The notes below the pieces were generated by a model. That model was not told where the DNA came from, did not search any database, and worked only from the letters and a program-made list of their open reading frames with translations. The position numbers and the translations under genes are program-made. Below are positions 37,054-40,884 of a stretch of 63,582 nt of DNA, one piece after another. The stretch comes from Verrucomicrobiota bacterium (lineage in GTDB: Bacteria; Verrucomicrobiota; Verrucomicrobiia; Chthoniobacterales; UBA10450): NCBI GenBank assembly GCA_003219415.1, contig QHOS01000036.1:1-63582 (forward strand). Reading direction: 5' to 3'. How positions within the stretch are numbered: position 1 is the first letter of the stretch; each line of letters starts with the position of its first letter.

Positions 37054-38019
37054 CTAATCTGACCTTGGGCTACTTCGCAAGCGGGACGCATGCCGTGTTT
37101 TCGCCAGCATGGCGATCCATTTCCCGCGACGGTTTACTTTCACGATCTCAATCTTGTTCCGTCTCAGAGCATGAAGGAGTTTGTTTTCTTGCATGCGAAG
37201 CACGCCGGAAAGAATTAGCCAATGAGCGCGTCTTAGTTTCGGGAGAATTTCGATCAACAACCGGCTGTAAAGATTCGCAGCAACGACGTCCCTTCCCGCC
37301 CGGGACTTCCATTTGCGCAGATCGCCCAACTTAAAATCGACATTATCGATTTTGTTAAGACGTGCGTTTGCTTTCGCTACGAAAATCGCTTTCGGATCGA
37401 TATCAATGCCAACCACGCGTCCTGCGCCGAAGCGTTCCGCCGCGAGAGCGAGAATTCCGCTCCCGGTTCCAAGGTCAGCAAGCGACCAGCTATTCTTCCA
37501 TTCGCGAGTCAAGCGCTCCAGGAGACGAAGGGACATTGCCGTCGTGGTATGTTGTCCTGTTCCAAACGCCGCGGAAGCGGGAATGACGAGGAGCCGCGGT
37601 TTCTTGACCCGCGCTGTGGTATGCACTGTCCTCAGCGCATGTGGTCGAGCTCGGTGAGTGTAGATCCGCTGAGGACAGCGGACACTACAGCATTGTGCCC
37701 GCACCTTGCTCCTGGCGATCACTAGCCGCGCGCCAATCCTGATAGGCTTCCTCTTTTCCGCGTCTGCGAATCGCTTGAGCCAATTGGGCGGCAATTTCTC
37801 GGTGCGTCCGCCAAATTCTTCGACCAGTTTTCGGGAATCATTGCGTGATGTGCACGCAATTTGGAGTTGCCGCCGCTTCCGCCCGGGTCTTGAGATGATC
37901 GCAAGTCTGCCACCTGAAAGCGCTTGCAAAATGTTTTCGTGCGCACTCAGCCAGCGCGGCTCAGCAATTTTTCGCCACAGATACATCACTTCCGGGAGCG
38001 CCTCTAGCGCGCGATTCAT
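37054..38019 (-). CDS. prmA: Ribosomal protein L11 methyltransferase with an in-frame palindrome insert
   Basis: This 321-residue SAM methyltransferase has the PrmA core: VIPASAAFGTGQHTTTAMSL, SLADLGTGSGILALAAERFG, VVGIDIDPKAIFVAKANARL and DVVAANLYSRLLIEILPKL with the NLY motif. It trimethylates L11. The N-terminal domain is divergent. Between LVIARSK and KKPRLLVIPASAAFGTGQH sits a Cys/Arg/His-rich stretch (111-135) encoded by a 75-bp palindrome. The frame is kept, so a product can be made with a loop just before the SAM site. PrmA activity therefore depends on that loop being tolerated. Confidence 0.85.
   Translation of the reverse strand: MNRALEALPEVMYLWRKIAEPRWLSAHENILQALSGGRLAIISRPGRKRRQLQIACTSRNDSRKLVEEFGGRTEKLPPNWLKRFADAEKRKPIRIGARLVIARSKVRAQCCSVRCPQRIYTHRARPHALRTVHTTARVKKPRLLVIPASAAFGTGQHTTTAMSLRLLERLTREWKNSWSLADLGTGSGILALAAERFGAGRVVGIDIDPKAIFVAKANARLNKIDNVDFKLGDLRKWKSRAGRDVVAANLYSRLLIEILPKLRRAHWLILSGVLRMQENKLLHALRRNKIEIVKVNRRGKWIAMLAKTRHASRLRSSPRSD
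37615..37689. repeat. 75-bp palindromic element inside prmA, in frame
   Basis: The left arm TGTGGTATGCACTGTCCTCA and GCG is mirrored by CGCTGAGGACAGCGGACACT and ACA. Twelve central arm bases (CGCTGAGGACAG) match exactly. The length is exactly 25 codons, and the reading frame of prmA crosses it without a stop. Confidence 0.88.
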
Positions 38020-40752: not shown

Positions 40753-40884
40753 AATCGAATGACCAATGCCGAATGACGAATGCCGAAGGAAATCCGAATG
40801 ACGAATACCGAACACGTTGGCGAGCAAGTATTCGTGTTTCCTGCTTCGTCATTCTTTCGTCATTCGTCATTCGAGCTTCGTCAT
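40753..40884. repeat. Imperfect palindrome of CGAATGACGAA units
   Basis: Several near-copies of GAATGACGAATGCCGAA in the left half are mirrored by TTCGTCATTC units in the right half (TCGTCATTCTTTCGTCATTC). It fills the truB-ribF gap. A second copy lies at 56036-56130. Confidence 0.75.

Follow-up and report, generated by a model that had tools for sequence, protein, structure and literature searches.

A GTAG-tagged REP heterodimer in frame within prmA of a Verrucomicrobiota genome, and related in-gene copies in the same genus

The stretch of DNA analyzed here (the window) comprises 63,582 nt of contig QHOS01000036.1 from the Verrucomicrobiota assembly GCA_003219415.1 (genome G000 below) and carries an ORF matching the ribosomal protein L11 methyltransferase PrmA (Pfam PF06325, 2.7e-39; PDB PrmA entries 3grz and 1ufk). 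Within this ORF, an inverted repeat (37613-37640 and 37664-37691) was found whose 28-nt arms are 82% complementary and lie 23 nt apart, with an RNA fold z-score of -2.79 for the palindrome (Table 1). A stem comparable to it, defined as 28 nt with at least 23 pairs and a spacer of at most 60 nt, was present in none of 30 randomised windows and in the real window was limited to the prmA palindrome and one minisatellite-like stretch. An earlier reading of the letters alone (the sequence-only reading) had proposed a palindrome carried in frame inside prmA, and this was borne out by the strength of the stem and by a 321-aa frame that stays open throughout. Repeats of the GAATGACGAAT type, whose inverted 57-nt arms are 72% complementary, also occur in the window at 40759-40884.

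Table 1. Coordinates of prmA and of the parts of the palindrome, numbered along the window.
Feature	Position	Strand	Description
prmA, ribosomal protein L11 methyltransferase	37054..38019	-	321 aa; ORF uninterrupted across the palindrome
SAM-binding motif DLGTGSG	37456..37476	-	Intact in alignment; follows the insert in the direction of translation
REP dimer (REPIN)	37613..37691	-	~79 nt; encodes roughly residues 110-136 (CCSVRCPQRIYTHRARPHALRTVHTTA)
Alpha arm, GCTGTAGTGTCCGCTGTCCTCAGCGGA	37665..37691	-	GTAG tag, stem TCCGCTG/CAGCGGA, loop TCCT; equals the family consensus
Spacer between the two REPs	37641..37664	-	24 nt; resembles no other copy's spacer
Beta arm, plus strand GCTGTGGTATGCACTGTCCTCAGCGCAT	37613..37640	-	About three changes relative to the consensus

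The palindrome belongs to a dispersed family. Its core, CGCTGAGGACAG, has 14 exact sites in G000 compared with 0 for the reversed control, BLAST likewise matched 14 places in this genome, and seven REP dimers along with singlets were recognised there. The repeat recurs both between and inside genes, and the prospect of its occurring nowhere else, which would have spoken against the sequence-only reading, did not materialise. In the aligned copies the family plan reads GCTGTAG-NG-TCCGCTG-TCCT-CAGCGGA, a spacer of ~11-36 nt and then the inverse of GCTGTAG-NG-TGCGCTG-TCCT-CAGCGCA, each arm consisting of a GTAG tag, an unpaired dinucleotide, a 7-bp stem and a 4-nt loop, with the two arms inverted at a short distance. 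GTAG stands at the outer end of each unit in the consensus of 88 dimers, and 95.6% of the intra-arm stem cells were paired across 82 dimers. At stem position 2, one arm has C-G and the other G-C in almost every dimer (inter-arm identity there of 5% and 2%). This compensatory swap, together with the intra-arm pairing, indicates two separate REP hairpins that form a heterodimer, and the palindrome is thus a GTAG-tagged REP heterodimer (REPIN). A simple palindromic MITE with one long stem was also considered and rejected, since in 95-98% of dimers the two arms do not complement each other at stem position 2. In the prmA copy (27 + 24 + 28 nt), the alpha arm bears the tag GTAG and the beta arm GTGG; the arms are of the ordinary GTG/CTC kind, the core measures 75 nt, and the frame reads CSVRCPQRI.

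A covariance model built from sequences that include the prmA copy itself matched that copy at 37612-37691 (E 3.7e-23). The scan covered 28 genomes of the same genus and 16 others of the order, the family's two other genera lying outside its scope, and gave matches in 26 of the 28 (up to 94 matches, both strands counted) compared with a single weak match among the 16. The family is mostly intergenic, and only five of 81 dimers sampled in relatives were clearly inside genes. Spacers are largely unrelated between copies, and core lengths vary from 61 to 86 nt (typically ~75).

G000 and G029 are sisters with 100% support in the tree, and comparison of the two showed a prmA linker of 160 nt in G000 and of 91 nt in G029, a difference of 69 nt or 23 codons. 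The sequence-only reading had described a palindrome exactly 25 codons long; given this net gain and the range of core lengths in the family, that length is a coincidence and no family property. A prmA linker without a REP of this family was found in G029, G006, G031, G028, G003, G019, G023 and G033. In close relatives PrmA thus lacks the insert with its flanks intact and has no homologous loop written in ordinary codons, the finding that would have undermined the idea of an inserted palindrome. Since the short linker GK-DFQ--KAFG is common to G029 and G003, it is likely to be the older state. Taken together, these data make it very probable that the prmA palindrome is a copy of a genus-wide GTAG REPIN that was recently inserted in frame in the linker and survived by tolerance. 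The copy would have entered the poorly conserved interdomain linker recently in evolutionary terms and, if translated as predicted, would give a PrmA lengthened by ~23 residues rich in Cys, Arg and His, with a methyltransferase domain that appears intact. Its survival would be explained by a linker that tolerates extra residues and a frame that stayed open, and we infer that the insert is neutral or near-neutral.

The in-frame reading could alternatively be a product of chance in a gene that is dying out. Among 35 genomes of the genus, prmA was detected in only 12, and in G027 and G015 the gene is broken; with so patchy a distribution the gene may be dispensable, and L11 methylation looks dispensable in this genus. 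In G000, however, the frame is open, the motifs are intact and there is no excess of changes, with one polarised amino-acid change in the catalytic domain on the G000 branch against five on the G029 branch, making decay an unlikely account of the insert. Over the whole protein, the polarised changes numbered seven for G000 and 11 for G029, and dN/dS between the two genomes was 0.27 for the catalytic domain and 0.37 for the N-terminal domain. The gene carrying the insert hence shows no sign of relaxed selection and apparently still functions. An AlphaFold prediction of this PrmA, made with two related sequences, reached a pLDDT of 47 and was set aside.

A decayed REP dimer is also present in the prmA linker of G001, in the same orientation and with a spacer of equal length, as might be expected if a single old PrmA loop had been inserted in a common ancestor of G000 and G001 and lost elsewhere. 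In the tree, however, G001 groups with G023 and G033, both of which have no REP in the linker, and G000 groups with the insert-free G029, so that one old insertion needs at least five losses; in addition, the G000 alpha arm equals the consensus despite near-saturated synonymous sites between G000 and G001 (dS 1.2-1.4). An ancestral insertion is accordingly quite improbable, and the decayed dimer of G001 is more parsimoniously read as a second insertion.

Apart from prmA, five or more further genes in the genus were found to carry REPINs or single REPs of the family in frame. In G000, pqqE (TIGR02109, E 8e-153) contains an in-frame REPIN immediately behind its CPYCSNP cluster motif, and a gene for an acyl-CoA ligase likewise contains an in-frame REP. 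In the relatives, in-gene copies occur in pqqE and in genes for an ImuB-like Y-family polymerase, an S9-type peptidase, that same acyl-CoA ligase and an alpha/beta hydrolase, the S9-type peptidase and the alpha/beta hydrolase being named by sequence motifs rather than by profile search. Different species have the insert in the same loop of a given protein, and six species retain the short loop in pqqE. In the pqqE of G000 (contig C76, L276), a remnant, GCTGTAGCATGCGC, precedes the full REPIN and the insert seems nested, which suggests a second arrival at the same place. In four species, the ImuB-like loop contains VGAIDLNRP, the translation of GTAGGGGCGATTGACCTCAATCGCCC, a REP that flanks the RAYT-like gene L392 of G000. 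Across the ImuB-like loci (L316-L345), this one loop reads AVxSAVPSG, VGAIDLNRP, HGLPAHPIGRMPMPR, TGRQDACP or SPSPPHGEKGSPLPL in different species. The peptides of the other species appear repeat-like, as if the loop were an insertion hot spot.

Many of the in-gene copies are also distinguished by their arms. An alpha arm with both GAG and CCC was present in five of the 88 sampled dimers, each of them read in frame within a gene (pqqE, ImuB-like twice, S9 peptidase and hydrolase), as opposed to none of 81 sampled non-coding copies (p ~5e-7, or ~7e-6 by our own count when the ImuB-like pair is treated as one), and genus-wide eight of nine GAG+CCCC sites are inside genes. These copies read AVESAVPSG...ALRTAHATA and have shorter cores of 61-67 nt compared with the typical ~75; they may represent a coding subfamily or the outcome of repeated selection. 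The preponderance of these shorter copies in genes would be consistent with a REPIN subfamily of the genus specialised for genes, of which the prmA insert would be one product. The prmA copy, however, has none of the marks of a coding type, given its ordinary arms, its full-length core and its different frame, and the V to E and L to P changes may equally reflect selection that acted convergently on the inserted peptide, or inheritance from one older master sequence. A coding-adapted origin of the prmA insert is therefore quite improbable, and its ordinary arms and other frame fit a recent arrival. For the family as a whole, we tentatively raise the possibility of a split into intergenic and gene-dwelling types, in which the V to E and L to P changes in the arms would yield a tolerated surface loop and the gene-dwelling type, with other REP families, would repeatedly occupy the same few loops of unrelated proteins.

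Divergence between G000 and G029 is uneven around the prmA REPIN. Identity (L052) is ~89% on the N-terminal side of prmA, ~93% on the catalytic side and ~97% in the next gene, and the linker at 37606-37765 could not be aligned to that of G029, so that the nucleotide junctions are not clean. As divergence is higher on the N-terminal side, recombination at the prmA locus is possible and may have taken the form of an allele replacement of the N-terminal half of the gene. The same imbalance, in a genome that is a MAG, might point to two contigs or strains wrongly joined at a repeated arm, but the flanks are the two halves of one in-frame prmA ORF, both closest to G029, and the spacer is unique, leaving an assembly artefact highly improbable.

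The REPIN is probably mobile but non-autonomous and would depend on a RAYT-type tyrosine transposase for its movement, as the company kept by other REPs of the genus would suggest. The genus has many Y1-family transposase genes (RAYT-like) with GTAG REPs of their own on either side, and G000 has two, L392 (contig C50) and L391 (contig C57), each between its own GTAG REP hairpins. The nearest plan was that of a RAYT-like gene in G021 (L394), flanked by REP dimers of the same design, GTAG-RG-7bp-TCYY. A RAYT flanked by exactly the prmA-type REP was seen in none of ~55 Y1-transposase loci from these genomes, which are incomplete MAGs.

In Pseudomonas, REPINs are associated with RAYTs and consist of two inverted REPs that behave as one dispersed unit. 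The elements described here share this organization of two inverted REPs in one dispersed unit and differ from it in a spacer that is almost unconserved and in a cognate RAYT that was not found. GTAG REPs, their RAYTs and intragenic REPs were described by Di Nocera et al. 2013 (PMC3733652), who suggested that intragenic REPs occupy linkers or loops and gave Opitutus terrae, a member of the Verrucomicrobiota, as the genome with the largest number of GTAG repeats inside genes. Elements of this class are thus already known, also in Verrucomicrobiota, and the statement of the sequence-only reading that there was no description in this phylum was wrong. In common with the GTAG REPs described there, the present family has the GTAG tag, a stem of 6-9 bp, a short loop, heterodimers and a mostly intergenic location with some copies in frame in genes, and the unpaired dinucleotide after GTAG, a trait of the GTAG-1/2 families (PMC3733652), is likewise present; the host genes are different, and the likeness concerns the general plan of the elements. 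The likeness to coding palindromes of Rickettsia drawn by the earlier reading held for behavior, namely an in-frame palindrome in an apparently functional gene that is absent in relatives, and gave way as regards identity, the family being a GTAG REPIN by arm anatomy. The Rickettsia elements, as presented in the same paper (PMC3733652), are likened to it by behavior rather than sequence, come from another phylum and, for RPE-1, are longer. The passages of that paper used here contain no account of one loop being occupied repeatedly in several species of a genus.

What is new is this REP family, its occurrence in PrmA and PqqE, the availability of a near relative that lacks the insert, and the same-loop recurrence. 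The comparison with a very close insert-free relative, together with the gene tree, shows that a REP dimer entered a conserved protein while selection on that protein was not relaxed. It also adds a genus where REP families repeatedly enter the same loops, in PqqE beside the radical-SAM cysteines, in the ImuB-like loop and in the PrmA linker. The old question of mobile palindromes as a source of new protein segments thereby becomes testable, comparatively as well as through expression of protein pairs that differ in the insert.

The related-locus search returned mostly RlmD-type methyltransferases, with L122 and L123 being the useful entries. L123 is the MAG "Verrucomicrobia bacterium isolate AV60", which is 100% identical to G019 over 2,123 bp and so falls within the genus of the window genome, presumably a soil genus, judging from the AV series of MAGs.
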